Shown here one piece after another: positions 72-12,511 of a DNA stretch of 12,511 nt. Below the pieces are notes generated by a model. It saw nothing but the letters and a program-made list of their open reading frames with translations. It was not told the origin of the DNA and searched no databases. A program made the translations under genes and the position numbers. This DNA comes from an uncultured Selenomonadales bacterium (GTDB lineage Bacteria; Bacillota_C; Negativicutes; Selenomonadales; Selenomonadaceae): assembly GCA_937916025.1 (NCBI GenBank), contig CALGGX010000440.1, positions 1 through 12,511 of the forward strand, read 5' to 3'. How positions within the stretch are numbered: position 1 is the first letter of the stretch; every line of letters starts with the position of its first letter.

Positions 72-1184
72 ATGACAAAAATACTTGTACCGCCGACGCG
101 TCCCGTTCTGCCGAATTTTGATCAATACGTCGACGAGATCAAATCGATTTGGCAAACGGGAGCCATGACAAACAACGGACCGAAACTCCGTACATTCAAA
201 TCGAAACTGCAGGAGTATTTGAACCATCCGAACCTCGATCTGTTTGTCAACGGGCATTCGGCACTCGAAATTGCGTTGCATTCTCTGAAATTGGACGGAG
301 AAGTCATTACTTCGCCGTTTACTTTTATTTCCACCACAAACGCAATCGTCCGCAGCGGTTTGACGCCCGTTTTTTGCGATGTCGATAATACTTACAACAT
401 CGATCCGAACAAAATCGAAGAATTGATCACGGAAAAGACTTCCGCAATCGTCACGCCTCATATCTTCGGCATTCCTTGCGATGTCAAACGCATTGAAGAG
501 ATTGCCGCAAAACACAATTTGAAGTTGATCTTCGACGCGGCGCAGGCATTCGGAACAAAAGTTGACGGACGCCATGTCGTTCTTTTCGGCGACATTACGA
601 TGGTCAGCTTCCATGCAATCAAGATTTTCAACAGCATCGAAGGCGGCATGCTCGTTTACAAAGCTCCGAGTCTGCAAAAGACTTTCGAGCTGTATCGCAA
701 TTTCGGAGTCAATTACGAGACGTCGGACGTCGATCTTTGCGGGTTCAACGCGAAGATGAACGAATTCCAAGCGGCAATGGGGCTTTGCAATTTGCCGAAT
801 TTCGAGAACGAGATCGCGACGCGTCACAAATTGGCGTTGCGTTATGCCGAGAAACTGGCTCCGATCGCGGGCGTCAAGATTTTCGATTACAAAGAAAATG
901 TTCGATACAATCATGCGTATTACCCCGTGCTCATCGACGAAGCCGAATTCGGCTTAAATCGCGACACGGTTTGGGAGCGGCTCCGCGACGAAGGCATAAT
1001 GACTCGAAAACTCTACGATCGCCTGACATGCGATACGGTTGCACATGCCGAAAACGGCAGACGCGGCGATCTTTCAACCGCGCGGAAATTGTCGACAATG
1101 TCGTTGGATTTGCCGATGTACGGCACTTTGACATTCGATGATGTTGATCTGATCGCGAACTCGATCGCCGAGTTGAAGAGGTAA
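72..1184 (+). CDS. DegT/DnrJ/EryC1/StrS-type sugar aminotransferase
   Basis: This 370-residue protein has the length and layout of PLP-dependent aminotransferases that put an amino group on a nucleotide-linked keto sugar, usually with glutamate as donor. Visible motifs are the substrate-side segment SPFTFISTTNAI (81-92), FDAAQAFG (154-161) with Asp155 expected to bind the PLP ring nitrogen, and SFHAIKIFNSIEGG (179-192) with Lys184 as the expected Schiff-base lysine. The ATG at 72 follows a purine-rich GGGGAA site at 60-65. It is the first gene of the cluster and ends four bases before the next start, so cotranscription is likely. No 4,6-dehydratase that would make a keto substrate is in the window, so that step must be encoded elsewhere. 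The formyltransferase at 11701 could act on its amino product. Family is secure; the exact sugar is unknown. Confidence 0.92.
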   Translation: MTKILVPPTRPVLPNFDQYVDEIKSIWQTGAMTNNGPKLRTFKSKLQEYLNHPNLDLFVNGHSALEIALHSLKLDGEVITSPFTFISTTNAIVRSGLTPVFCDVDNTYNIDPNKIEELITEKTSAIVTPHIFGIPCDVKRIEEIAAKHNLKLIFDAAQAFGTKVDGRHVVLFGDITMVSFHAIKIFNSIEGGMLVYKAPSLQKTFELYRNFGVNYETSDVDLCGFNAKMNEFQAAMGLCNLPNFENEIATRHKLALRYAEKLAPIAGVKIFDYKENVRYNHAYYPVLIDEAEFGLNRDTVWERLRDEGIMTRKLYDRLTCDTVAHAENGRRGDLSTARKLSTMSLDLPMYGTLTFDDVDLIANSIAELKR

Positions 1185-1188
1185 TTGT

Positions 1189-2796
1189 ATGGAAAACGAA
1201 AACACTTTTGATCGCGTCGACATCGATTTTGAAGCGATAGCAAACTCGTTGCAGGGATCAAATCAAGTTGTGATTTACGGCGTCAATCCCATGGCAATGA
1301 TCACGATGCTCGAACTCTCTTTAATCAACATTCCGACGGTCTTTTTTGCGGATGAAGCTCCGGATCGACAAGGTTATTTCGGCAGACCGGTTCTCAAAAT
1401 GACCGACATTCCGCCCGCAATCAGTTTGAATCCGCTCGTGATCATTGCAAAAAAACTCGACGACGAAGAGCCGATAAGAGATGCATTCCGTCAACGCGGC
1501 TACTTTAAATTCTTCAGCTTGAAGACGTTGCAATACGTCAATCGGCAACGGCAACGGCGAATCGAAATGCAATGGCTTTCGCAAATTGCCCGCATGATTA
1601 ATGTTTCTTCCGATAAACCGGTCGACGCGGGCATGAAAATGCAAATGCTCTTGCAAATGAATCACAACAAAGAATTGCGCAAGGCAGTCTTCGTGTCGTT
1701 GAATCTTTCGGCGCGCTCCTACAAAATCATGAAAGCCGTTCAAAAACAAGGCATCAAAGTCGATTACATTCATGTTTTGGGCGGAGCCGCCGATCCAAGT
1801 GTTCGCGAATCGGTCATTGCCGAAGCGGACTCTTATTCCGAAACCGGCTCGCATATTGATCTTCTCATTCGACTGATGACGAGCCAAGCATCGTTTGTTC
1901 ATCTGTTTTCGCATGCTTGGAGCCCGGAGCTCATGTGCATCATGTCGTACTTGATTTACAAAAAGAAATTTCTGCCGACCGTTGTTTTCGATCAATACGA
2001 TGTCGGCAGACTTTATACCAATTTCCCGCAATTGACTTATGCCAACGAACAATTCTGCATGGAAAATGCCGATATCGTCACCGATCGTTCGTTTGAAGTC
2101 GACTACTTGATCGAGCATCACGACTGCAAATTGCAACGTCCGAAAGTGCAACTCTTTGACGGTTGCGACGAGCGCATTCAAGCTCCGTACTTCATCATCA
2201 AAGACGACGCGCCGTTGCGGCTGTGCTATGCCGGAGGTCTCGTCAATGTCAAAGTGCAGGACGATTGGGATTGGACGGGCTTGGCGAAGTATTGCGAGGA
2301 AAAACGTTGTCATATTGATGTTTATCCCGCCCCGGGCAATTGGCGCGATCCGAATTACAAACAGCGTTTTGAAGAATTCTTCATCTGGGATCGCGAAATT
2401 GAGTTTTTCAATCTCCACAACCCCGTGCCTTATGCCAATCTCGTGAAGACTTTGAATCAATACGATTACGGAACGCATCCGATGAAGCGCGTCGGCGAGC
2501 ATTCAACGGCGGATCAACTCGGATATTACACAAAATGGAAGCGCGTCTATGCTTCATCGAATCACTTTTTCGATTACATCAGTGCCGGACTGCCGATCAT
2601 TGCAAATCGTCCGGAGCGAACCTCCAAGTATTTTGAATCGCTGGGCATTGGAATCAATTACGCCGTTGAGGATTACGATTTTGAATTTCTTAAAGCGAAC
2701 CGGCAAAAATATCGCGAGCGCGTTAAAGAGGTCAGACCGCAATTATATACAAACAATCTCGTCAAGCCTCTGCTCGAATTGATTTTGCCGATTTGA
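1189..2796 (+). CDS. Glycosyltransferase-like protein with N-terminal nucleotide-binding-like domain
   Basis: A 535-residue soluble protein with no signal peptide or membrane segment visible. Residues about 25-110 (VVIYGVNPMAMITML, FFADEAPDRQGYFG) resemble the N-terminal IYGAG...FxDDDP module of the two FkbM proteins downstream. Residues about 160-535 look like a GT-B type glycosyltransferase: a Rossmann-like start (KAVFVSLNLSARSYKIM), LRLCYAGGL near 345, and DYISAGLPIIANRPERTSKYFESLG at about 462-486, the position where family 4 enzymes bind the donor nucleotide. The ATG at 1189 sits behind GAAGAGG at 1174-1180, which overlaps the end of the upstream gene. It has no homopolymer switch. It most likely adds a sugar to the glycan made by the cluster; donor and acceptor are unknown, and the transferase call is by pattern only. 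Confidence 0.7.
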   Translation: MENENTFDRVDIDFEAIANSLQGSNQVVIYGVNPMAMITMLELSLINIPTVFFADEAPDRQGYFGRPVLKMTDIPPAISLNPLVIIAKKLDDEEPIRDAFRQRGYFKFFSLKTLQYVNRQRQRRIEMQWLSQIARMINVSSDKPVDAGMKMQMLLQMNHNKELRKAVFVSLNLSARSYKIMKAVQKQGIKVDYIHVLGGAADPSVRESVIAEADSYSETGSHIDLLIRLMTSQASFVHLFSHAWSPELMCIMSYLIYKKKFLPTVVFDQYDVGRLYTNFPQLTYANEQFCMENADIVTDRSFEVDYLIEHHDCKLQRPKVQLFDGCDERIQAPYFIIKDDAPLRLCYAGGLVNVKVQDDWDWTGLAKYCEEKRCHIDVYPAPGNWRDPNYKQRFEEFFIWDREIEFFNLHNPVPYANLVKTLNQYDYGTHPMKRVGEHSTADQLGYYTKWKRVYASSNHFFDYISAGLPIIANRPERTSKYFESLGIGINYAVEDYDFEFLKANRQKYRERVKEVRPQLYTNNLVKPLLELILPI

Positions 2797-2810: not shown

Positions 2811-3398
2811 ATGTCATACATTACTTCATCGATCGAGACACTCAAAAAGGTGCGTCTGATCAAAGGATTCTCAACCCCCCCCTGTGTTGAAAGTGTTGAA
2901 TCGTACGATGACATCATCACGACTCTGACGGAGTGTTTTCTCGTTGCGAAGAAAAATCGCAACATGATTTTTTTCATCGGAAACGGCGGAAGTGCCGCAA
3001 TTTCGATGCATATGACCGTGGACTTTTTGAAGAACGGCGGCATGCGTACTCACGGTATGCATGATCCCGCCGTTCTTACTTGTCTTGGAAACGATTACGG
3101 CTACGAACATGTCTTTGACAAGCAGATCGAAATGATCGCAAAGTCGAATGACGTGCTCGCGGCCGTTTCCAGTTCCGGAGAGTCGCCGAACATTCTCAAC
3201 GCCGTTCATTCCGCGCGGAAGATCGGTTGTGCGATCATCACTCTGTCCGGCTTCAAGGCAGAAAACAGTCTCAGTCGACTCGGCGATCTGAACATCCACG
3301 TTCCGAGCATGAATTACGGCACGGTCGAGTCAATTCACAACATGATTTTGCAGGACGTCGTCGATGAGATCAAACGCATTTCCGAAGGGGGAATTTGA
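2811..3398 (+). CDS. SIS-domain phosphosugar isomerase, GmhA-like (phase-variable, ON)
   Basis: A 195-residue protein of the sedoheptulose-7-phosphate isomerase type, the first committed step of ADP- and GDP-heptose synthesis. The phosphate-binding loop FIGNGGSAA is at 55-63 and the second phosphate motif SSSGESPN at 120-127. His67 and Asp71 fall where GmhA has its metal-binding His and Glu (an Asp for Glu change), and His176 fits the C-terminal catalytic His. The start is ATG 2811 behind GGGAGAG (2799-2805); an earlier in-frame TTG at 2793 has no better site. Eight C at 2875-2882 encode Thr22-Pro-Pro24 in a loop before the SIS core. C8 keeps the frame open; C7 or C9 meets a stop soon after, leaving a short peptide without the active site. 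Its substrate may differ from sedoheptulose 7-phosphate. Confidence 0.88.
   Translation: MSYITSSIETLKKVRLIKGFSTPPCVESVESYDDIITTLTECFLVAKKNRNMIFFIGNGGSAAISMHMTVDFLKNGGMRTHGMHDPAVLTCLGNDYGYEHVFDKQIEMIAKSNDVLAAVSSSGESPNILNAVHSARKIGCAIITLSGFKAENSLSRLGDLNIHVPSMNYGTVESIHNMILQDVVDEIKRISEGGI
2875..2882 (-). repeat. Poly-C/poly-G tract of 8 in the isomerase gene (frame ON)
   Basis: Eight C on the + strand, so the G run is on the - strand, opposite to the other four tracts. With nine C the reading frame meets TGA at once (in the TGTTGA after the tract); with seven C it reaches a TGA after about 17 codons. Bases 2865-2885 are the exact reverse complement of 3531-3551 in the epimerase gene (ACA-G8-TTGAGAATCC read on the - strand). 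Confidence 0.85.
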
Positions 3399-3399
3399 A

Positions 3400-4410
3400 A
3401 TGAAATCACTCGTCACGGGCGGTTGCGGCTTTATCGGCTCGCACATGGTCGATCGACTGCTCGCCGAAGGGCATGAAGTCGTCGTCATTGACAATTGCAG
3501 TACCGGCAGAGCCGAGAATTTGCAACACATACAGGGGGGGGTTGAGAATCCTCCGAAACTCAAAGTCGTTTTCGGCGACATTTGCGATGAAGAATTGATC
3601 GCGCCGCTGTTTGAAGGCGTCGATTGGGTATTTCATTTCGCGGCGTTGGCGGATATCGTTCCGTCGATCCAAAAGCCGGTCGAATATTTTCATTCCAATG
3701 TGGACGGCACGTTTGCGGTATTGCAGGCGGCACGCAAAGCCGGAGTCAAACGTTTTCTCTACGCCGCGTCTTCTTCCTGCTACGGCATTCCCGACAAATA
3801 TCCGACAAATGAACTTGCCGAATTCCGTCCGCAATATCCTTACGCCTTGACAAAGCGGCTCGGCGAGGAATTGGCTTTGCACTGGGCGCAAGTCTATAAA
3901 CTTCCCGTCGTCTCGCTTTGCATGTTCAACGTCTACGGTCCGCGCTCCCGAACGTCCGGAACTTACGGCGCGGTCTTCGGCGTTTTTCTCGGACAAAAAC
4001 TCGCCGGCAAACCTTACACCATTGTCGGCACCGGCGAACAGACACGAGATTTTACTTACGTCACGGACGTCGTCGACGCGTTTTGGACGGCAGCAAATTC
4101 GAATATCGTCGGCGAGAGATTTAATGTCGGCAGTGAGCATACTTACTCCGTCAATCGGCTCGTCGAATTGTTGGGCGAAGGCAAGCCGTATGAAGTCGTT
4201 CATATTCCGAAACGCCCCGGCGAACCCGATTGCACTTGGGCGGATACGACGAAGATCAACTCGATGTTGAATTGGCATCCGAAAGTCAGTTTGGAAGAAG
4301 GCGTCAAACACATCATCGAAAACATAGATTATTGGCGCAAAGCTCCCGTGTGGACGCCGGAAACGATCAAAGAAGCCACTGCGGATTGGTTTAAATTCTT
4401 GAGTAAGTAA
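3400..4410 (+). CDS. NAD-dependent nucleotide-sugar epimerase, extended SDR family (phase-variable, ON)
   Basis: A 336-residue extended short-chain dehydrogenase. The NAD-binding motif TGGCGFIG is at 6-13, a Ser-rich catalytic strand AASSSCYG at 123-129, and the Tyr148-x3-Lys152 pair in YPYALTK. The Ser-Ser-Cys segment in place of Thr-Asp-Glu argues for an epimerase (UDP-glucose 4-epimerase or WbpP type) rather than an RmlB-type 4,6-dehydratase. The start ATG 3400 has GAAGGGGGA at 3384-3392 in front and lies one base after the isomerase stop; the in-frame ATG at 3364 is inside the isomerase gene and has no site of its own. A G8 tract at 3534-3541 codes for the end of Gln45 plus Gly-Gly and the first base of Val48, in a surface loop after the first Rossmann strands. 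G8 is in frame; G7 and G9 truncate. Substrate unknown. Confidence 0.9.
   Translation: MKSLVTGGCGFIGSHMVDRLLAEGHEVVVIDNCSTGRAENLQHIQGGVENPPKLKVVFGDICDEELIAPLFEGVDWVFHFAALADIVPSIQKPVEYFHSNVDGTFAVLQAARKAGVKRFLYAASSSCYGIPDKYPTNELAEFRPQYPYALTKRLGEELALHWAQVYKLPVVSLCMFNVYGPRSRTSGTYGAVFGVFLGQKLAGKPYTIVGTGEQTRDFTYVTDVVDAFWTAANSNIVGERFNVGSEHTYSVNRLVELLGEGKPYEVVHIPKRPGEPDCTWADTTKINSMLNWHPKVSLEEGVKHIIENIDYWRKAPVWTPETIKEATADWFKFLSK
3534..3541 (+). repeat. Poly-G tract of 8 in the epimerase gene (frame ON)
   Basis: Eight G inside the coding sequence, flanked by ACA before and TTGAGAATCC after. G9 would read GGG GGG GGT TGA and stop at once; G7 would run about 15 further codons to a TGA. Either change removes nearly all of the enzyme. 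The tract plus flanks (3531-3551) is a perfect inverted copy of 2865-2885. Confidence 0.88.
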
Positions 4411-4423
4411 AGGGCTTGAATCC

Positions 4424-5962
4424 ATGAACAAAATCGTAACCCAACAGGAATTTCATGAACTTCGTGAAGGTTTTAGAGCGAAAAACAAAACCGTGGTACT
4501 CTGCCACGGCGTTTTCGATCTCCTGCATTACGGACATATCGAGCACCTGCAGGAAGCGAAAGCGCAAGGCGACATTCTCGTCGTTTCGGTTACCGCCTCG
4601 AAGTACGTCAACAAAGGACCGGGGCGTCCGTATTTCAGCGATCAACAGCGCATGCAGTTTTTGGCGAGCATCGAGTGTGTCGATTACGTCGTTTTGAGCG
4701 AAGCCGTCACCGTTCATGAAGTCGTCAAAAATGTACAACCCGATATTTACGTCAAAGGCGCGGAATATGCCGTTGCACAGAATGACGTTACCGGCAATAT
4801 CGACGCCGAACGAGAGATTGTCGAGCAGTACGGCGGTCGGATATATTTCACTTCGGGCGAAGTTTACAGCTCGACGAAATTGCTGAACAGATTTTTCGAT
4901 GCCCTGCCGGAAAATGTCATCAAAGAATCGCAGGAAATGCGTAAAAAACACGGTGCAAACGTTTTTGAGCAAATTCGCGATCGCGTCGAGTCTTTTCGCG
5001 ATCTGAACGTGCTGGTCGTCGGCGACATCATCATCGACGAGTACGTTTTTTGCAAAGTGCAGGGCTTGACGATGAAAGACTCGGCAATGTCGACGCTGTA
5101 CAATTCTTATGACAGATATGCGGGAGGCGCGCTTGCCGTCGCCCGGCATTTGGCGAATTTCGCGGGCAAGGTGACGTTCCTCTCGCAAATGGGCATGGAA
5201 GAGGACATCTTGAATTACATTCTGCCGAAAATGCCGCCCGTCGAATGCCGCATCGTTCAATCGAAAAACTTCATCACGCCCGTCAAGCGTCGATACTTGA
5301 AAGTCAACAATCTTCGGCAGGAGTTTGACAAGCTGTTTTCGATCAATCATCTCTCGACGTTTGAACAGCTGAAAAATGTCGACTACGGCAATTTCTACCG
5401 CAATCTCGAAGAAATGTTGCCGAATTACGATGTGATTGTGGTTTGCGATTACGGACATGGATTGTTGCAGGATAAAGCACTCCGAATGATTGAAGAACGG
5501 GCAAAATTTTTGGCGGTCAACTGTCAAACAAACTCGTCGAATTACGGCATGAATCTCATTACGAAATACACCCGCGCGGATTGCTTTGTGCTCGATGAGC
5601 GCGAACTTCGATTGGCGGCGGGCGCGTCTTTGGATGATAATCGCACCGTGTTGCATAAACTCTGCACACAACTGCACAGCAAATATGCATGGCTGACGTT
5701 GGGAGCGGACGGCGCGCTCGGCATTGACGGCGAGATCGAAGCAAAGCAGTCGGCAGTTACTCTTCATGTCAAAGATACGGTCGGAGCCGGAGATGCGTTT
5801 TACTCGCTGGCACTGTTGGCGGCGGCGGTCGATATTCCGATCGATCAGGCAACATTGGTCGGAAATATCGCCGGCGCGATCAAAACCAACCTGCTCGGCA
5901 ATTCGCGCCCGGTGGCAAAGGTTGATCTTCTGAAATTCCTCGGCACGGTCTTGAATGTTTAA
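4424..5962 (+). CDS. Bifunctional nucleotidyltransferase-PfkB sugar kinase, HldE/RfaE-like with swapped domain order (copy 1)
   Basis: A 512-residue fusion. Residues about 20-160 are a cytidylyltransferase-fold domain: HGVFDLLHYGH with HYGH at 35-38 (the HxGH nucleotide-binding motif), KGPGRPYF (64-71) and SSTKLL (149-154). Residues about 193-512 are a PfkB/ribokinase-type kinase beginning VLVVGDIIIDEYVF and ending with DTVGAGDAF, where Asp457 is the expected catalytic base. In Escherichia coli HldE the kinase comes first; here the order is reversed. With the upstream isomerase it would fit activation of a heptose 7-phosphate-like sugar, kinase then nucleotidyl transfer; no GmhB-type phosphatase is present, so the substrate may be different. 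Start ATG 4424 lies 13 bases after the epimerase stop with only a weak AAAGGG in front. A close paralogue is at 8360. No homopolymer switch. Confidence 0.87.
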   Translation: MNKIVTQQEFHELREGFRAKNKTVVLCHGVFDLLHYGHIEHLQEAKAQGDILVVSVTASKYVNKGPGRPYFSDQQRMQFLASIECVDYVVLSEAVTVHEVVKNVQPDIYVKGAEYAVAQNDVTGNIDAEREIVEQYGGRIYFTSGEVYSSTKLLNRFFDALPENVIKESQEMRKKHGANVFEQIRDRVESFRDLNVLVVGDIIIDEYVFCKVQGLTMKDSAMSTLYNSYDRYAGGALAVARHLANFAGKVTFLSQMGMEEDILNYILPKMPPVECRIVQSKNFITPVKRRYLKVNNLRQEFDKLFSINHLSTFEQLKNVDYGNFYRNLEEMLPNYDVIVVCDYGHGLLQDKALRMIEERAKFLAVNCQTNSSNYGMNLITKYTRADCFVLDERELRLAAGASLDDNRTVLHKLCTQLHSKYAWLTLGADGALGIDGEIEAKQSAVTLHVKDTVGAGDAFYSLALLAAAVDIPIDQATLVGNIAGAIKTNLLGNSRPVAKVDLLKFLGTVLNV

Positions 5963-5975
5963 AAGTATTTTTTGT

Positions 5976-5982
5976 GAGGTGA
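5976..5982 (+). promoter_or_regulatory. Ribosome binding site fixing a TTG start
   Basis: GAGGTGA lies six bases upstream of TTG at 5989 and there is no suitable ATG nearby, so it decides the start of the first FkbM gene. A similar AGGTGA overlaps the stop of that gene (7125-7130) and serves the second FkbM gene at 7136. Confidence 0.75.
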
Positions 5983-5988
5983 CAACCG

Positions 5989-7130
5989 TTGAAAGAAATT
6001 ACACGCGATAACAGCGCGGAGATCAAACGCGAATTGGAAAATTCGACGACGTTCATTTACGGCGCGGGCACGCTCGGACGCCAGACTCTGAAATTGTTGA
6101 ATGAAATGCAACTTGATGCGGATTACTTTGTCGACGACGATCCGAGTAAACACGGAACGCTTGTCGAAGGCAAAAAATGTTTCGGCTTCGACGATCTGAA
6201 ACGCATTTCAAAATCCGAAAAAACGAGCGTCATAATGGGCAGCAGTTTTGCACGGGTGATTTTGGAAAGGCTTAAGACAATTCCCGTCGAGATTTACGAA
6301 ATATACTCGATGTTGGTCAGCGATTGCGATAATGCGTTGGATCGATGCCTGTCGATGAAACAATCGTCGGCGGATTGGAATGCGAAATGGCATGAAGTCA
6401 AACACATTTTCGGCGATGAAGAGTCGCGGCGAATTTGGCAATTGATGGCTGATGTTGCCAACGGCGGCGAATTGTTGAAAGAACGGTTTATTGCCGTTTC
6501 GTCGACGGAGGAGCATTACTTCGTCTCGCCGATTCCGCAATTGCTGAACGAAAACTCGGTGCTGGTCGATTGCGGCGCATACACCGGCGACATGCTCGGG
6601 CAGTTGACGCGAAACAACATTCGCTTCGGCAAGATTTACGAGATCGAGGCAAATCCCGTCGTCTTTCCGAAAATCGCCGAGAACGCCGCCAAGTTGAATT
6701 TGACGGATAAAGTCGTTCCCGTCAATTGCGGCTTGTCGAATGCGAAGGGCGAGATGAATTTTTTGGTGCGCGACGAGAATTTGGCGGCGAGTTATCTCCT
6801 CGATCCGGCTGAAGTCGAGAAACATAGGGGGGGGTACAAACAATCACAATTCCGACCGGAACATTGATTGACATTGTCGATGAGAAGATCGATTTTCTGA
6901 AGACGGACATTGAAGGAGCCGAGCTTCCGATGTTGCGCGGTGCAAAAGATTTACTCCGCACTTCGCGTCCGATTTTGGCGATTTCGATTTATCATTCTCT
7001 CGACGATGTGATCGATATTCCGATTTTTTTGTATGAAGAACTCGCCGATTATACATTTTTCCTGCGGCATCATTCGTATTACGTCGGCGAGACGGTTTTC
7101 TACGGCATTCCGAATGAATTGATCAGGTGA
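5989..7130 (+). CDS. FkbM-family methyltransferase, paralogue 1 (frameshifted at G8: phase OFF)
   Basis: As given, translation from TTG 5989 stops at 6865-6867 after 292 residues; the rest of the protein lies one frame away up to the TGA at 7128-7130. Adding one G to the tract at 6827-6834 (G9) joins the halves into 380 residues: ...GGVQTITIPTGTLID... FLKTDIEGAE. The N-terminal part has the IYGAG (23-27) and FVDDDP (47-52) module, then VLVDCGAYTGD (191-201), the SAM-binding motif I. The OFF product lacks the FkbM core motif KTDIEGAE and should be inactive. The joined protein aligns throughout with the intact neighbour at 7136, which supports a switch or recent frameshift rather than decay. 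FkbM enzymes typically O-methylate sugars or small molecules. Slippage during transcription or ribosomal frameshifting on the G run could still give some full-length product. Confidence 0.85.
6827..6834 (+). repeat. Poly-G tract of 8 in FkbM paralogue 1 (frame OFF)
   Basis: Eight G preceded by ACATA and followed by TACAAAC. G9 restores the full 380-residue frame; G8 stops at 6865 and G7 at the TGA of the third frame a few codons earlier or later, so only G9 (or G6/G12) is ON. Its flanks are the most diverged of the five tracts. Confidence 0.87.
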
Positions 7131-7135
7131 TGTAA

Positions 7136-8224
7136 ATGATTCGCGAAGTGAGTTTTGAGCGATTGGATCGATCATTGTTTGAAGGACGCAATGTGATCTA
7201 CGGAGCGGGTTATAACGGCAAATTGCTGTTTGAAAAGCTGACGCGGCATAACGTTCCGATTGCGGCTTTTTACGACGACGATCCGACAAGACAGGGGGGG
7301 GATGAGAAATACTGCGGTCTGAATATCTTGAGCAGAAATGAGCTCCTCTCGTCGGATCGGACGACGACGAATATTTTGATCTCGAGCATGTATTTCGCGC
7401 AAATGTCTGCAAAGGCTTCCGAAATGGGCTTCTCACGATTGTTCACCTTCTTGGAATTTCTTCTGCAACGCGACGGAGATATTATTGATTTCGACAAGTA
7501 CCGGCACGACGAAAAGTATGTTGCGCGGCTCCGAAAATTAATTACGAAATTCGACGATGCGGAATCGGTGAAATATCTCGAAACGATCTTGAACTCGGTA
7601 CTCGAAGGAAAAGCATTGCGCGCAATCGTCGACTGTTACTCCGATGAGCCGCAATATTTTCCAAAGTCGATCAGGCATTTGTTGAACGGGATCAATTTTC
7701 TCGATGCGGGAGCTTACACCGGCGACACGTTGCGCGAAATGTCGGCATTGGGAATAAAACCGGCGAATGTATATGCCTTTGAAGCGGACGCCGACAATTT
7801 CCGAAAATTGGCGGCGTATCAATTCGACGATATCGGAAACATACATTGCGAAAATTTCGCGCTTTGGAATGAGCGAACCCGGCTCGCGCTGAAGCGAAGC
7901 AATTACATCGCGGCGGTTGATCCGAACGGCGAAGAAAAATCCGTCGAGGCGATATCGATTGACGAATATTTTTCCGATATTCCGATCGGCTTTGTCAAAA
8001 CGGATATCGAAGGCGCGGAACGTTATGCATTGGCAGGCGGCATGAAAGTTCTCGAGCGCAATCGTCCGATTTTGGCAATTTCGATCTATCACAGCCTTGA
8101 TGATGTCGTCGATATTCCGGAAATGCTGATGAGCCGATTGCAGAATTACGATTGGTTCATTCGCAAGCATTCATCGACATACTCCGAAGCAATTTTATAC
8201 GGCGTACCGCTCGAACGTATCTGA
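7136..8224 (+). CDS. FkbM-family methyltransferase, paralogue 2 (phase-variable, ON)
   Basis: A 362-residue intact homologue of the preceding gene. IYGAG is at 21-25 and FYDDDP follows at about 45-50; the SAM-binding motif LDAGAYTGDT has its Asp at 190; FVKTDIEGAE, the FkbM signature, is at 286-295. The C-terminal stretch RPILAISIYHSLDD is almost identical in both copies. Start ATG 7136 is six bases after the previous stop with AGGTGA (7125-7130) overlapping that stop, so translational coupling is likely; this also means the OFF state of paralogue 1 could lower expression here. G8 at 7294-7301 falls in the N-terminal module (Gln-Gly-Gly-Asp), at a different place from the tract in paralogue 1. 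It is the last gene before a promoter-containing gap. Likely a sugar O-methyltransferase; substrate unknown. Confidence 0.87.
   Translation: MIREVSFERLDRSLFEGRNVIYGAGYNGKLLFEKLTRHNVPIAAFYDDDPTRQGGDEKYCGLNILSRNELLSSDRTTTNILISSMYFAQMSAKASEMGFSRLFTFLEFLLQRDGDIIDFDKYRHDEKYVARLRKLITKFDDAESVKYLETILNSVLEGKALRAIVDCYSDEPQYFPKSIRHLLNGINFLDAGAYTGDTLREMSALGIKPANVYAFEADADNFRKLAAYQFDDIGNIHCENFALWNERTRLALKRSNYIAAVDPNGEEKSVEAISIDEYFSDIPIGFVKTDIEGAERYALAGGMKVLERNRPILAISIYHSLDDVVDIPEMLMSRLQNYDWFIRKHSSTYSEAILYGVPLERI
7294..7301 (+). repeat. Poly-G tract of 8 in FkbM paralogue 2 (frame ON)
   Basis: Eight G preceded by ACA and followed by ATGAGAAA. G9 reads GGG GGG GGA TGA and stops at once; G7 reaches TGA about seven codons on. 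The tract is upstream of the whole methyltransferase domain, so either change abolishes the enzyme. Confidence 0.87.
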
Positions 8225-8275
8225 ATTCGGGCGTCGCCGACCGGGCACTTCTTAAACACAAATTTTTTCTACTGC

Positions 8276-8304
8276 TTGAAATGTGATTTTAAATGTTGTA
8301 TCAT
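8276..8304 (+). promoter_or_regulatory. Sigma-70-type promoter upstream of the second transferase-kinase gene
   Basis: TTGAAA (8276-8281), a 17-base spacer, and TATCAT (8299-8304) form a near-consensus promoter in the 135-bp gap 8225-8359. A start near 8311 would leave a leader of about 50 bases before ATG 8360. It suggests a second transcription unit from 8360 onward. No clear intrinsic terminator for the upstream unit is seen in 8225-8275. The sequence TTGTATCATCTTTC around the -10 resembles the start of the 35-bp blocks at 11646 and 12470. Confidence 0.7.
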
Positions 8305-8359
8305 CTTTCGACAGTCGAATTGTTTTGTGTACTCAAAATTAGCGGGAGAGAAGTGCTTA

Positions 8360-9910
8360 ATGTCTACGTTGCAAAAAGTCATTGCACAATCGGATTTTAA
8401 AAAATTGCGGCAGGATTTTCGCGATCGAAACAAAACCGTGGTGCTTTGCCACGGAGTTTTTGATTTGCTTCATTACGGGCATATCGAGCATCTGAATGAG
8501 GCGAAGGCGCAGGGCGATATCCTCGTCGTTTCGATCACCGCCTCGAAATATGTAAACAAAGGTCCGGGCAGACCGTATTTCAATGATCAACAGCGAATGT
8601 CGTTTCTTGCCAACATCGAATGCGTTGATTACGTGATGTTGAGCGAGTCGCCGACGGTGCATGATGTCGTCGAAAACGTGCAACCCGACATCTACGTCAA
8701 AGGCGCGGAATATGCCGATGCCCGCAACGACGTCAACGGCAATATTTCTTCCGAACAGGAGATTGTCGAGCGTTACGGCGGACGGATTTATTTTACATCG
8801 GGTGAAGTGCACAGCTCGACGAAGTTGCTGAACAATTTCTTCGGAGCCTTGCCGGATAACGTCATTAAAGAGTCTCAAGACATGCGCAAAAAGTACGGCG
8901 CGAATGTCTTCGAGCAGATCAGAAATTGCGTCGACGGTTTTCGGGATTTAAACATCCTCGTCGTCGGCGACATTACGATTGACGAATACGTCTTTTGCAA
9001 GGTGCAGGGCGTGACGCGAAAAGATTTCACGGTGTCGACGCTGTACGACTCTTCCGAGCGATACGCGGGAGGCGGCTTGGCAGTTGCCCGGCACTTGGCG
9101 AATTTCGCGGGCAAGGTAACCTTCCTCTCGCAAATGGGCATGGAAGAGGATATATTGAATTTTATTTTGCCGAAAATGCCGCCCGTCGAATGTCGCATAG
9201 TTCAGTCGAAAAACTTCATCACGCCCGTCAAGCGTCGATATCTGAAGTATCACAACCTTCGGCAGGAATTTGACAAGCTGTTTACGATCAATCGACTGTT
9301 GACGGCGGAGCAGATGAAAAATGTCGATTGCGGCAATTTTTTGCGGAACCTTCGCGACATTTCGGCGTCTTACGATGCGGTTGTCGTTTGCGATTACGGA
9401 CATGGCGTATTGTCGGATGAAGCAATCCGATTGCTTGAAGATCGGGCGAAGTTTTTGGCGGTCAATTGTCAAACGAACACTTCCAATTACGGCAGAAATA
9501 TCCTCAATCGCCGATATCGCCGCGCGGATTGTTTTGTAGTCGATGAAGGCGAAATTCGTCTGGCGTCCGATCAATCTTTGGAGCCGAATTCGGTTCTGTT
9601 GCATCGACTTTGCGATCAATTGAAAAGCCGATATGCATGGTTGACGCTGGGCGCGAGCGGCGCACTCGGCATTTGCGGCGATTCCGAAACGCAATTGTCG
9701 GCACTTACGTTGCATGTAAAAGACACCATCGGCGCGGGTGACGCATTTTATTCGCTGGCATTGCTCGGCGCAATCGGCGGACTTCCAATCGATTGGGCGA
9801 CTTTGATTGCAAACGCCGCCGGAGCGATCAATACCAATTTCTTGGGCAATTCGCGCCCGGTGGCGAAAGGCGATTTGCTGAAATTCCTCAGTACGGTTTT
9901 GAATGTTTGA
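8360..9910 (+). CDS. Bifunctional nucleotidyltransferase-PfkB sugar kinase, HldE/RfaE-like with swapped domain order (copy 2)
   Basis: A 516-residue paralogue of the protein at 4424, identical by eye over long stretches in both domains (roughly three quarters of positions). It keeps CHGVFDLLHYGH, NKGPGRPYF, SSTKLLN and, near the C terminus, DTIGAGDAF with the catalytic Asp. Both copies therefore look active, and differences cluster in the second half of the kinase domain (for example the stretch after the QSLEPNS segment), which could mean a different sugar specificity or simply drift. ATG 8360 is preceded by GGGAGAG at 8344-8350; the in-frame TTG at 8276 coincides with the promoter -35 and is not used. 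It opens the second transcription unit. Function by family: phosphorylation at C1 of a sugar phosphate and transfer of a nucleotide to it; ADP-heptose type product is the nearest known case. Confidence 0.87.
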   Translation: MSTLQKVIAQSDFKKLRQDFRDRNKTVVLCHGVFDLLHYGHIEHLNEAKAQGDILVVSITASKYVNKGPGRPYFNDQQRMSFLANIECVDYVMLSESPTVHDVVENVQPDIYVKGAEYADARNDVNGNISSEQEIVERYGGRIYFTSGEVHSSTKLLNNFFGALPDNVIKESQDMRKKYGANVFEQIRNCVDGFRDLNILVVGDITIDEYVFCKVQGVTRKDFTVSTLYDSSERYAGGGLAVARHLANFAGKVTFLSQMGMEEDILNFILPKMPPVECRIVQSKNFITPVKRRYLKYHNLRQEFDKLFTINRLLTAEQMKNVDCGNFLRNLRDISASYDAVVVCDYGHGVLSDEAIRLLEDRAKFLAVNCQTNTSNYGRNILNRRYRRADCFVVDEGEIRLASDQSLEPNSVLLHRLCDQLKSRYAWLTLGASGALGICGDSETQLSALTLHVKDTIGAGDAFYSLALLGAIGGLPIDWATLIANAAGAINTNFLGNSRPVAKGDLLKFLSTVLNV

Positions 9911-9936
9911 CAAAAATTCGGAGGAGAAACTTCAAC

Positions 9937-11014
9937 ATGGCAAAACAAAACATCAGAATTGACTCGCATAAGTTGATTTATCATCCTTGTGAAGTCGCGC
10001 GTTGGTTGAACACAGGGGGGGGATCTGAAAACAATTTATCCGATTGAAATCGAGGTCGGATTGAGCGGTGCATGCAATCATCGTTGCATTTTCTGCGCGC
10101 TCGACTACATCGGATATAAACCGAATTTCTTGGATACGAAGTTGTTTCTGGATAACGTCAAAGAGCTGTCGACGCGCGGACTCAAGAGTGTAATTTTTGC
10201 CGGGGAAGGCGAGCCGCTCATGCATAAAGACGCGCCGTTCATCTTCAACGAAACGAAGGCGTGCGGCGTGGATGCGGCATTGTCGACAAACGGCGTGTTG
10301 CTGACAAAAGAAGTTTCGGAGCAGTGTTTGCAATCGCTGACGTGGATTCGGTTCAGCATCGCGGCGGCTACCGAAAAGACTTACGCGAAAATTCAGAGCC
10401 GTCGAAAGGGCGATTTGCAACGCGTTTACAACAATCTGCAAGATGCCGTCAAGATCAAGCGCGACAAAAATCTCGGCGTGACGCTCGGTGCGCAACTTCT
10501 GCTGTTGGAAGACAACAAAGACGAAGTGTATCTGCTTGCAAAAAATTTACGCGAGATCGGAATGGATTATCTCACCGTCAAGCCCTTCTCGCAACACAAG
10601 TACAGCGGACATTTAATCGCCGTCGATTACGAAGACAGTCGCGAGATCGAGCGACAGGTCAAAGAGTTGGCAACGGACGATTTCGCAATATACTTCCGGC
10701 ATCAGGCAATTCAAAACTTGACCGCCGAAAAGCCGTACGATAAATGTTATGCCTTGCCTTTCATGACGCACATCGACGCGAAAGGCGAGGTTTTTCCTTG
10801 TGTGGCGTTCGTCGGCATCGAAGAATTTTTATACGGCAACATTTACGAAAAGCCGTTTACGGAGATTTGGGAGAGCGAACATACGCGCGAGGTAATGGAA
10901 AAATTCAGCGGCGAATTTTTGAAGACAAAATGCCGCAAGGCGTGCCGGTTGGACGAGATGAACAAATATCTGCATGCGTTGAAACATCCCGGCGCGCACG
11001 TTAACTTCATTTGA
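9937..11014 (+). CDS. Radical SAM protein with C-terminal SPASM-like cysteines (frameshifted at G8: phase OFF)
   Basis: From ATG 9937, behind a strong GGAGGAG (9920-9926), the frame as given ends at 10045-10047 after 36 residues. Removing one G from 10015-10022 (G7) joins it to the downstream frame as 358 residues reading ...NTGGDLKTIYPIEIEVGLSGACNHRCIFC. CNHRCIFC is the CX3CX2C motif that binds the 4Fe-4S cluster (Cys46, Cys50, Cys53 in the joined protein). Four more cysteines near the C terminus (KCYALPF, FPCVAF, TKCRKAC) look like an auxiliary-cluster SPASM-type region. The conserved YPIEIEVGLSGACN lead-in lies between the tract and the first TTG in that frame (10061), so the real start must be 9937. 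Radical SAM enzymes of this kind in glycan clusters are poorly characterised; the reaction is unknown. Stop at 11012 overlaps the next ribosome binding site. Confidence 0.85.
10015..10022 (+). repeat. Poly-G tract of 8 in the radical SAM gene (frame OFF)
   Basis: Eight G preceded by AACACA and followed by ATCTGAAAA, at codons 27-29. G7 (or G10) gives the full protein; G8 stops at 10045 and G9 reads GGG ATC TGA and stops at once. The left flank AACACA matches that of the isomerase tract when the latter is read on the - strand. Confidence 0.88.
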
Positions 11015-11027
11015 GGAGAGTGATTTG

Positions 11028-11723
11028 ATGAGCAGTTTTTATTCTGCCGAAGAATTGAAGGCAATCGGCTTTGCGAGCGTCGGTGAAGACGTCAGCGTAA
11101 GTCGACTCGCCGCGATCTATTCGCCGCAGAAAATTTCGCTCGGCAATCACGTTCGGATTGACGACTTCGTCTTTCTGAGCGGCGGTGCCGGAGTCGAGAT
11201 CGGCGATTACGTCCACGTTGCCGTTCACGCGAGCCTTTACGGCAAGTTCGGCATCAAAATCGGCAATTACGTCAACATTTCCGGCAAGGTAACGATTTTT
11301 TCAAACAGCGACGATTACTCCGGCGAATACATGACCGGTCCGTTGCTTGGCGACGAATTCATTCATGACATCGGCGGTCCGGTTGTGCTGGAGGATCATG
11401 TGATCATCGGCGCGGGCTCGCTCGTGTTGCCGAATGTCGTTTTGGCTGAAGGAACGGCGGTCGGCGCAATGAGCTTGATCAAAAAATCGACCGAGCCGTT
11501 TTCGATGTATGCGGGCATTCCGGCGCGCAAGATCAAAGAACGGAGCCGTCGATTGAAAGTTCTCGAAAAACAATTCCTGAATCAGCAATCAGCAATCAGC
11601 AATCAGCAATCAGCAATCAGCAATCAGCAATCAGCAATCTCTTTAATTATAGCACATTTTTCGATGTGCGTCCACTTCTTCATGAGAGGAGGCGGGCGGC
11701 ATGAATGTGCTGTTCATGGCTAA
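11028..11723 (+). CDS. Hexapeptide-repeat acyltransferase (acetyltransferase family) with repeat-encoded C-terminal tail
   Basis: Residues 1-184 form a left-handed beta-helix acyltransferase of the WbbJ/galactoside acetyltransferase type: repeated [I/V]G-x4 turns (ISLGNHVRI, VEIGDYVHV, IKIGNYVNI, VIIGAGSLV), a likely catalytic His67 in VAVHASLYG, and the terminal YAGIPARKIKER typical of the family. It would transfer acetyl or a related acyl from CoA to a sugar hydroxyl or amine. ATG 11028 follows GAGGAGAG (11013-11020), which abuts the radical SAM stop. Residues 185-231 are encoded by an AATCAGC array and the sequence after it (NQQSAIS repeated), and have no family counterpart. As given the frame runs 23 bases into the next gene; nine repeat units would end it at ATGA overlapping the next start, seven would end it just after the array. 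The enzyme core is unaffected in all three frames. Confidence 0.85.
   Translation: MSSFYSAEELKAIGFASVGEDVSVSRLAAIYSPQKISLGNHVRIDDFVFLSGGAGVEIGDYVHVAVHASLYGKFGIKIGNYVNISGKVTIFSNSDDYSGEYMTGPLLGDEFIHDIGGPVVLEDHVIIGAGSLVLPNVVLAEGTAVGAMSLIKKSTEPFSMYAGIPARKIKERSRRLKVLEKQFLNQQSAISNQQSAISNQQSAISLIIAHFSMCVHFFMRGGGRHECAVHG
11580..11639 (+). repeat. Tandem heptamer repeat (AATCAGC), 8 full units plus AATC
   Basis: Eight perfect copies occupy 11580-11635, followed by a partial AATC. The unit is not a multiple of three, so each gain or loss shifts frame. Three units encode NQQSAIS. The array lies between the end of the acyltransferase core and the 35-bp block that precedes the formyltransferase start. 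It is a simple-sequence contingency repeat by structure; an effect on the next gene is inferred. Confidence 0.93.
11646..11680 (+). repeat. 35-bp block, copy A, ahead of the formyltransferase start
   Basis: Aligns without gaps to 12470-12504 with 27 of 35 bases identical, including the last 11 (GTCCACTTCTT). It contains GCACAT-N6-ATGTGC (11652-11669), a perfect 6-bp dyad that could be a small hairpin or a protein-binding site. TATAGC at 11649-11654 could be a weak -10. A GAGGAGG site (11685-11691) and ATG 11701 follow. Confidence 0.65.
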
Positions 11724-12511
11724 AGAGACGCCGTCGTCAATTCGGTCGCTGAAATATCTGCTGTCGAAACGGATCGACGTGACGTTTGCGGTATTGCGTC
11801 CGAACGATGAGCAGTTGCAAAACATCTGTCGGGAAGCGAAAATTCCCGTCGGCAGCGAAGAAGATTTTCTCCTCCGCGCGGAGCAATTGCCGCCGATCGA
11901 GTACCTGCTTTCGTTCTATTGGAAATTGGTAAAGCCGTCGACATTGAAGATTCCGAGCAAGGGCAGCATCAATTTTCATCCCGGACCGTTGCCCGAGGCG
12001 CGCGGCTCCGGATATCACGCGGCAATTCTCAATGATTGGGGATATTGGGGCGCAACCGCGCATTACATGGACGAGACGTTCGATACCGGCAACATCATCT
12101 GCTGCGAGCGTTTTCCGATTCCGCACGACATTGTAAATCGCGATCTCGTTCGGCTGGCACATTTGAAAACGGCGGAGTTGTTCGAGAAGATCATCGATCG
12201 GATTTCGGCGGGCGAGATTTTGGAAGCAACCGTTCAGCCGAAAGGAACGTATTACAGCCTGAAGGAATTGGAACAGGGTAAATACATCCGCGCGGACGAC
12301 TCGACGGAAACGATCAAACGAAAAATTCGCGCCTATTGGAATCCTCCGTACTCCGGCGCGAAAATTGTTTTGAACGGCTCCGAGTATACCGTGATTGACG
12401 ATGCAATCTTGAAATACATTGCCGGAGCGGATCAGATCAGATCAGATCAGATCAGATCAGATCAGCTTCATTGTACCATATTTCTCAATGCAAGTCCACT
12501 TCTTGAAAGGG
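11701..12511 (+). CDS. Sugar N-formyltransferase of the methionyl-tRNA formyltransferase fold (3' end outside window)
   Basis: The open frame covers 270 residues to the window edge. INFHPGPLPEARGSGYH contains Asn91 and His93, and ETFDTGNII contains Asp128; these are the Asn-His-Asp triad of formyltransferases using N10-formyltetrahydrofolate. The N-terminal half is the Rossmann domain, and residues about 205-245 (KIRAYWNPPYSGAKI) match the start of the C-terminal subdomain. Size and context with an aminotransferase point to formylation of an amino sugar (VioF/QdtF/WbtJ type) rather than of initiator tRNA. ATG 11701 has GAGGAGG at 11685-11691 and overlaps the tail of the acyltransferase frame by 23 bases. 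Residues from about 244 are encoded by a GATCA array (DQIRS repeated), probably near the natural C terminus. Whether the frame stops soon after the window cannot be seen. Confidence 0.85.
   Translation, partial: MNVLFMAKETPSSIRSLKYLLSKRIDVTFAVLRPNDEQLQNICREAKIPVGSEEDFLLRAEQLPPIEYLLSFYWKLVKPSTLKIPSKGSINFHPGPLPEARGSGYHAAILNDWGYWGATAHYMDETFDTGNIICCERFPIPHDIVNRDLVRLAHLKTAELFEKIIDRISAGEILEATVQPKGTYYSLKELEQGKYIRADDSTETIKRKIRAYWNPPYSGAKIVLNGSEYTVIDDAILKYIAGADQIRSDQIRSDQLHCTIFLNASPLLER
12430..12464 (+). repeat. Tandem pentamer repeat (GATCA), 7 units
   Basis: Seven perfect copies, with a further G at 12465. The unit is not a multiple of three; three units encode DQIRS. Each unit contains GATC, so seven potential Dam methylation sites sit five bases apart. 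It lies at the 3' end of the formyltransferase frame, directly before the second 35-bp block, the same arrangement as the heptamer array at 11580. Confidence 0.93.
12470..12504 (+). repeat. 35-bp block, copy B, at the right edge
   Basis: Matches 11646-11680 at 27 of 35 positions with no gaps. The dyad seen in copy A is not kept (only CAT...ATG remains). GAAAGGG at 12505-12511 could be the ribosome binding site of a gene starting just outside the window, which would repeat the layout array, block, ribosome site, start codon. Confidence 0.6.

Follow-up and report, generated by a model that had tools for sequence, protein, structure and literature searches.

A stretch of 12,511 nucleotides from an uncultured Selenomonadales bacterium, referred to here as the window, carries eleven co-directional genes (g1 to g11, all on the plus strand), five of which contain a tract of exactly eight G or C residues within their coding sequence. 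We consider it probable that these five genes form a poly-G contingency gene cluster in a surface-glycan locus and are switched by slippage of the DNA. The genes concerned code for a GmhA-like SIS-domain isomerase (g3, 2811..3398, 195 amino acids; PF13580, E 1.4e-14, with matches to phosphoheptose isomerase structures), an NAD-dependent sugar epimerase/dehydratase (g4, 3400..4410, 336 amino acids; PF01370/PF16363 and UDP-glucose 4-epimerase structures), two FkbM-type methyltransferases termed FkbM1 (g6, 5989..7130; Pfam and frame analysis) and FkbM2 (g7, 7136..8224, 362 amino acids; PF05050, and TIGR01444 above cutoff), and a radical S-adenosylmethionine (SAM)/SPASM enzyme (g9, 9937..11014; PF04055, PF13186). 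Run counts reproduced the five sites listed in an initial annotation of this DNA, namely C8 at 2875..2882 in g3 and G8 at 3534..3541 in g4, 6827..6834 in g6, 7294..7301 in g7 and 10015..10022 in g9.

The tracts span 7.1 kb. Apart from them the longest run of G or C in the window is one G5, and runs of six or seven do not occur. Markov models of order 1 to 3, with the tracts trimmed, predicted at most about 0.04 runs of eight in the window. When the tracts were left in, 0.11 runs were expected at order 3 and 1.7 at order 4, the latter value being circular. At the tract density of the related genome RUG102 (see below), 0.19 tracts would be expected per 12.5 kb, and the probability of encountering at least five is 1.8e-6. 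The window thus contains intragenic G/C homopolymers of at least seven residues in excess of chance, as is typical of poly-G/C contingency loci.

In silico, a change of one base in tract length moved the reading frame in all five genes between full length and a premature stop, as had been predicted from inspection of the frames. With the tracts as given, the genes for the SIS isomerase, the epimerase and FkbM2 are in frame (ON), and those for FkbM1 and the radical SAM enzyme are out of frame (OFF) and stop after 292 and 36 amino acids, respectively, which agrees with the three ON and two OFF genes originally reported. The tract of FkbM1 is located at codon 280, and the 292-amino-acid product ends within the methyltransferase domain: positions 111-161 of the 173 positions of the FkbM profile fall in the cut-off piece, and the 292-residue piece itself has no Pfam match. 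Given this position, roughly the latter half of the FkbM domain would be missing from the OFF form.

Both OFF genes are otherwise intact and remain open past the tract for 88 codons (FkbM1) and 317 codons (radical SAM). In comparison with RUG102, the differences after the tract at codon positions 1/2/3 amounted to 0.33/0.21/0.62 in the radical SAM gene and to 0.32/0.20/0.55 in FkbM1. Judged by this pattern of divergence, neither OFF gene is an old pseudogene.

Homologues of FkbM1 appear to occur in both states at the tract site. A search for such homologues yielded ten proteins, one of which was the window's own. Three of the nine others (P0242, P0245 and P0246; 50, 53 and 56% identical to the window protein) stop just past a Gly-Gly(-Gly) where the tract lies. 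Five others are full length, among them P0243 with Gly-Gly-Gly at the site, and the last is an uninformative fragment with an earlier end.

For FkbM2, 47 of 120 listed homologues were aligned, which placed the tract within two extra residues. Among homologues spanning the site, this insert is shared only by P0001, a protein 99% identical to that of the window. At the tract site, P0005 and P0043 start with Met and then directly GG(G), and P0045 starts six residues ahead of a GGG located there; such starts could arise from an out-of-frame gene. The radical SAM alignment comprised 33 of 120 listed proteins, including the window's own. Here the tract lies within about four extra residues relative to homologues, and in 27 of the 33 proteins the sequence is continuous across the site and lacks the four-residue insert, with one additional residue in three of them. 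The first residue of P0122, which is 84% identical, is the internal one at which the OFF piece encoded in the window also starts.

To place the locus among its relatives, 13 loci were compared. The SIS-epimerase-HldE cluster, often accompanied by radical SAM, FkbM and aminotransferase genes, was present in RUG102 relatives and in Lachnospiraceae/Clostridiaceae records. RUG102 is an uncultured Veillonellaceae metagenome-assembled genome (MAG) which, on contig OMZR01000045.1 (loci L006/L101), shares with the window the order SIS-epimerase-HldE-(one unassigned open reading frame)-FkbM1-radical SAM. It carries a G8 tract in the same FkbM1 loop, in frame and by eye about five codons from the tract of the window, and two further tracts towards the 3' ends of their genes, G9 in a second radical SAM gene and G8 in another epimerase-like gene. 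It differs from the window in that its epimerase gene has no tract; the contig end truncates its SIS gene. In the Lachnospiraceae genome L002, a relative of FkbM2 has G9 at its glycine-rich motif. The tracts of RUG102 and L002 indicate that tracts are a recurrent feature of these genes, though their positions differ.

The RUG102 genome has 49 tracts of at least eight residues in 3.2 Mb. A mechanical rule applied without a shuffled control counted 37 of these as having at least 90 nt of open frame to either side, the two sides sharing one frame in 10 cases and using two in 27. The same rule took the wrong strand for the epimerase tract of the window, i.e. for one of the five known tracts, and the RUG102 counts are therefore rough. 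Several RUG102 tracts (L110-L157) lie within a CCCCCCTCTAGAGGGGGG-like palindrome, a setting unlike the intragenic one and perhaps located between genes. In a count over 13 genomes, chosen for holding relatives of these genes, four have 87-188 eight-G windows, G9 being counted twice. L002, L008 and L020 are Lachnospiraceae MAGs named 'Lapin' (perhaps from rabbit gut) with four G9-G10 tracts per stretch of about 17 kb; 172 eight-G windows were counted in the L002 genome and 188 in that of L008, and L020 belongs to the same MAG as L002.

The epimerase is 85% identical to that of G276, a member of the RUG102 family, and 80% identical to that of Lachnospiraceae L004. HldE matches were obtained in eight of 189 genomes of the RUG102 family (best, 68% in RUG102) and not in viral contigs. 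When an alignment of 16 FkbM2 proteins was searched against 84,980 genomes (one per species), the top match among the best 80 of 153 relatives was 54% identical. Judged by such similarities, a Negativicutes (Selenomonadaceae/Veillonellaceae-like) affiliation would be a guess, and an origin elsewhere in the Firmicutes might fit as well in view of the epimerase values. The search for tracts in FkbM1 and FkbM2 orthologues returned relatives at the cut-offs only in RUG102 itself (one of 189 genomes) and in G002 itself (one of 299).

A number of observations weigh against a contingency locus. The tract was absent from all 12 orthologues compared for the SIS isomerase and likewise from all 12 for the epimerase. 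No close genome was found: the best radical SAM matches were 58% identical among 300 genomes of the RUG102 class (two matches) and 59% among the 189 family genomes (four matches). P0001 retains the Gly-Gly of the window protein, and the 292-amino-acid FkbM1 product represents four sequences on two contigs; to the extent visible, these nearest copies do not vary. Ten of the 47 FkbM2 homologues are without the N-terminus, seven of which begin elsewhere than at the tract site, and four further radical SAM homologues (of the 33) start late, P0128 of these at the site. Except for RUG102, the evidence from homologues is at the protein level, where Gly-Gly-Gly is no proof of a G run and contig ends can also cause truncation. 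Given its offset of about five codons, the FkbM1 tract of RUG102 may be a separate gain. In Campylobacter jejuni, for which the cited part of the source gives gains of 4e-4 and losses of 4e-5 per division at G8, this length is at the slower end of the switching lengths (PMC8224891).

The late starts of FkbM2 homologues at other sites and the likeness of the nearest copies slightly reduce the weight of a contingency locus and slightly increase that of gene decay, in which case neutral runs would account for the tracts and young pseudogenes for the two genes that are out of frame. Such decay would agree with two of five tract genes being out of frame, and redundancy is suggested by the second HldE copy and the two FkbM genes. 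The coding-type divergence past the tract, with its excess at third positions, is likewise compatible with a pseudogene if that is very young. On the other hand, the tract is the sole frame break in each OFF gene, with all 317 and 88 downstream codons free of stops; five runs of exactly eight and none of six or seven are unlike neutral runs; and the break in three FkbM1 homologues coincides with this site. Decay is thus regarded as unlikely. The contingency locus proposed at the outset keeps its support from tracts far above chance that shift the frame of sugar-type genes, from FkbM1 homologues in both states, from the tract in the FkbM1 loop of RUG102 and from OFF genes that are otherwise open; among the nearest copies, no difference in tract length was seen.

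Polymerases and ribosomes can slip on homopolymers. If this occurred on G8 at the RNA level, the OFF genes would yield some full-length enzyme at a fixed ratio, and no heritable switch would be involved. Equal tract lengths would be favoured by a fixed setting of this kind; however, such a setting does not need three ON and two OFF genes, and on the message the run of the SIS gene is poly-C, unlike the other four. In addition, no Rfam element was detected at gathering thresholds, a weak argument as few frameshift elements are Rfam families. Taken together, we consider slippage at the RNA level quite unlikely.

The epimerase G8 tract is located at a 12-nt in-frame insertion that is missing from all 12 orthologues (12 of the 13 loci; L102 was omitted because the gene is cut off). 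The SIS tract lies within five to seven extra residues relative to 12 orthologues (L101, cut off, was omitted), in an N-terminus that is poorly conserved. Both tracts are part of a perfect 22-nt inverted repeat (arms 2864..2885, containing the C8 tract, and 3531..3552), which includes 14 nt outside the run and had escaped the initial annotation. A native Gln/Lys-Gly pair is found at the position of the epimerase run (CAGGGG in L104), and the Asn-Pro that follows the run is also present in some orthologues (L109, L002).

The flanks of all five tracts were compared over 17 positions and scored 98 of 170, while among 20,000 random sets taken from 114 other sites with G3-5/C3-5 the score averaged 48 and peaked at 85. 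When either member of the identical flank pair was left out, random sets matched the observed similarity in 10 or 1 of 20,000 draws. From the inverted repeat and the likeness of the flanks, one tract or more seems to be a copy. The SIS tract would then be an opposite-strand copy of the epimerase tract, and the remaining tracts may be related to this pair. The direction of copying, from epimerase to SIS, follows from the native flanks only. A poly-G cassette of the epimerase gene might hence have been copied to the SIS gene by an opposite-strand template switch, with related copies seeding the other genes, i.e. tracts might pass between genes; we view this scenario as possible but tentative. 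If true, the locus gains switches by copying, as opposed to the gradual lengthening of native G runs. The inverted copy of a tract in another gene provides a concrete case in which to ask how new switches come about.

A short mobile element was also considered as the carrier of the tracts and rejected: an 18-letter flank motif, allowing at most one mismatch, had a single match in the 189 family genomes, where the G run is interrupted, and viral contigs contained no exact match. When the flanks of RUG102 tracts were compared in random fives, their likeness was no greater than that of random sites. The 22-nt repeat could pair between SIS and epimerase on a common message with -51 kcal/mol, compared with -34 kcal/mol as the strongest value in 296 random pairs, and message duplexes with the other three tracts ranged from -32 to -40 kcal/mol; the duplex was not used as an explanation.

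The arms of the inverted repeat could also delimit an intragenic inverton, in which the 645-nt middle flips and thereby switches SIS and epimerase. The two perfect 22-nt arms, 645 nt apart, favour such an inverton; against it, a perfect partner is lacking for each of the other three tracts. Flipping the segment in silico leaves a SIS frame of 91 codons and replaces the N-terminal NAD-binding part of the epimerase, though an open stretch of 347 codons persists. Moreover, searches of Pfam and NCBIfam revealed no recombinase among the eleven genes of the window. An inverton is therefore very unlikely.

Tandem repeats were found in two more genes, g10 (11028..11723), which codes for a hexapeptide acetyltransferase (NCBIfam WcaF/NeuD-like matches below cutoff) with a repeat-encoded tail, and g11 (11701..12511), which codes for a formyltransferase (PF00551, E 2.2e-10) and continues past the window edge. 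The repeats, (AATCAGC)8.6 at 11580..11639 and (GATCA)7.2 at 12430..12465, are both non-triplet, are located at the 3' ends of the respective genes and were not mentioned in the initial annotation; with them, the number of repeat-bearing genes in the window is seven of 11. As the units consist of 7 and 5 nucleotides, the frame depends on copy number. In silico, the acetyltransferase frame comprised 203-238 amino acids for 5-11 repeat units, and the tail of the formyltransferase was altered after about residue 245. Changes in copy number would hence alter only the C-terminal tails, past the portion held in common with relatives, and leave the enzyme core intact, which, as a frame effect only, resembles C-terminal phase variation of the Helicobacter canadensis type. 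The relatives in L001 and L004 end near the start of the repeat, so that the tail may be incidental; the acetyltransferase of L002 has G10 near its end. The 7-mer repeat was absent from the 380 genomes of the RUG102 class that were searched. Both repeats are followed by a 38-nt stretch (11643..11680 and 12467..12504; 29 of 38 positions identical) that ends in GTCCACTTCTT. An equally high score was obtained in two of 299 random pairs, and the stretch is possibly a duplicated spacer.

The remaining four genes have no tract. The first, g1 (72..1184), codes for a DegT/DnrJ/EryC1/StrS aminotransferase (PF01041, E 9e-88). The second, g2 (1189..2796), is guessed to code for a glycosyltransferase; Pfam and NCBIfam searches gave no match, and its relatives sit in the same neighbourhood in L102, L002, L003 and L004. 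Genes g5 (4424..5962) and g8 (8360..9910) both encode HldE-like fusions of a cytidylyltransferase-like domain and a PfkB kinase (PF01467, PF00294). The two flank the FkbM pair, and their DNA is 73-76% identical over the longest stretches. Overall, the family matches of the window proteins are mostly of sugar-synthesis and sugar-modification types. As the GmhA and HldE family scores in NCBIfam are far under the curated cut-offs, a heptose pathway at this locus is a guess only. Positions 1-30 of the window resemble the 3' end of a tRNA gene, presumably cut by the contig edge, where ARAGORN reported no tRNA; Rfam and tRNA scans of the whole window gave no match.

If the locus operates by contingency, slipped-strand mispairing at replication would lengthen or shorten the G8/C8 tracts and thereby toggle the SIS isomerase, the epimerase, FkbM1, FkbM2 and the radical SAM enzyme between full-length and truncated forms. 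The repeats in g10 and g11 would add variation in the C-terminal tails of the acetyltransferase and the formyltransferase only. A clone would become a mixture of glycan variants, and such heterogeneity might be of use against phage or immunity. The 32 expression states put forward initially hold as an arithmetic upper limit; since the genes are co-directional and may belong to one pathway, turning off the isomerase or the epimerase may hide the effect of the remaining switches. OFF alleles resemble broken or missing genes, and if the tracts switch, annotations misreport the gene content of such loci.

Among known systems, a close counterpart is found in Helicobacter canadensis, a member of the Campylobacterota. 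Eight of its 21 candidate phase-variable genes and five of eight C-terminally variable genes are located in or near one glycosylation cluster, and methyltransferase and formyltransferase genes are among those with tracts in or near this region (PMC2823697). Switching of sugar-synthesis steps had been called unusual for the window, which is too strong a statement, as an NAD-dependent epimerase/dehydratase gene of H. canadensis, HCAN_0165, also contains a tract that slips (PMC2823697). As in the window, 3' repeats of H. canadensis swap only C-terminal tails; those of the window consist of 7-mer and 5-mer units. The systems differ in that, in the part of the report cited here, the tracts of H. 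canadensis are longer (G11-17 in the epimerase gene) and variation was seen in reads, whereas those of the window are all G8 (PMC2823697). Likewise, the capsule and flagellar glycosylation genes of C. jejuni have G8-G12 tracts in surface-sugar genes, several per locus, with combinatorial states. The cited portions of these reports describe 29 loci genome-wide with measured rates, whereas the window has five tracts in 7.1 kb known from sequence alone (PMC4965091, PMC8355987, PMC8224891). A gut commensal, Bifidobacterium breve, uses slippage of a G tract as an ON/OFF switch of sortase pili. According to the cited excerpt, pilin genes are concerned, each of two clusters has a tract in its first gene that is longer than those of the window (G11, G12), and lengths were measured after passage through mice (PMC9187656). 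Among the matches listed from the open-licence literature, no title or beginning of an abstract dealt with poly-G phase variation in Negativicutes or Lachnospiraceae. The window would extend multi-gene poly-G switching to a glycan cluster of little-studied gut Firmicutes. By analogy with these systems, the mechanism would be of the known poly-G contingency kind, with H. canadensis as a close precedent, while the lineage and the copied tract seem to be new.

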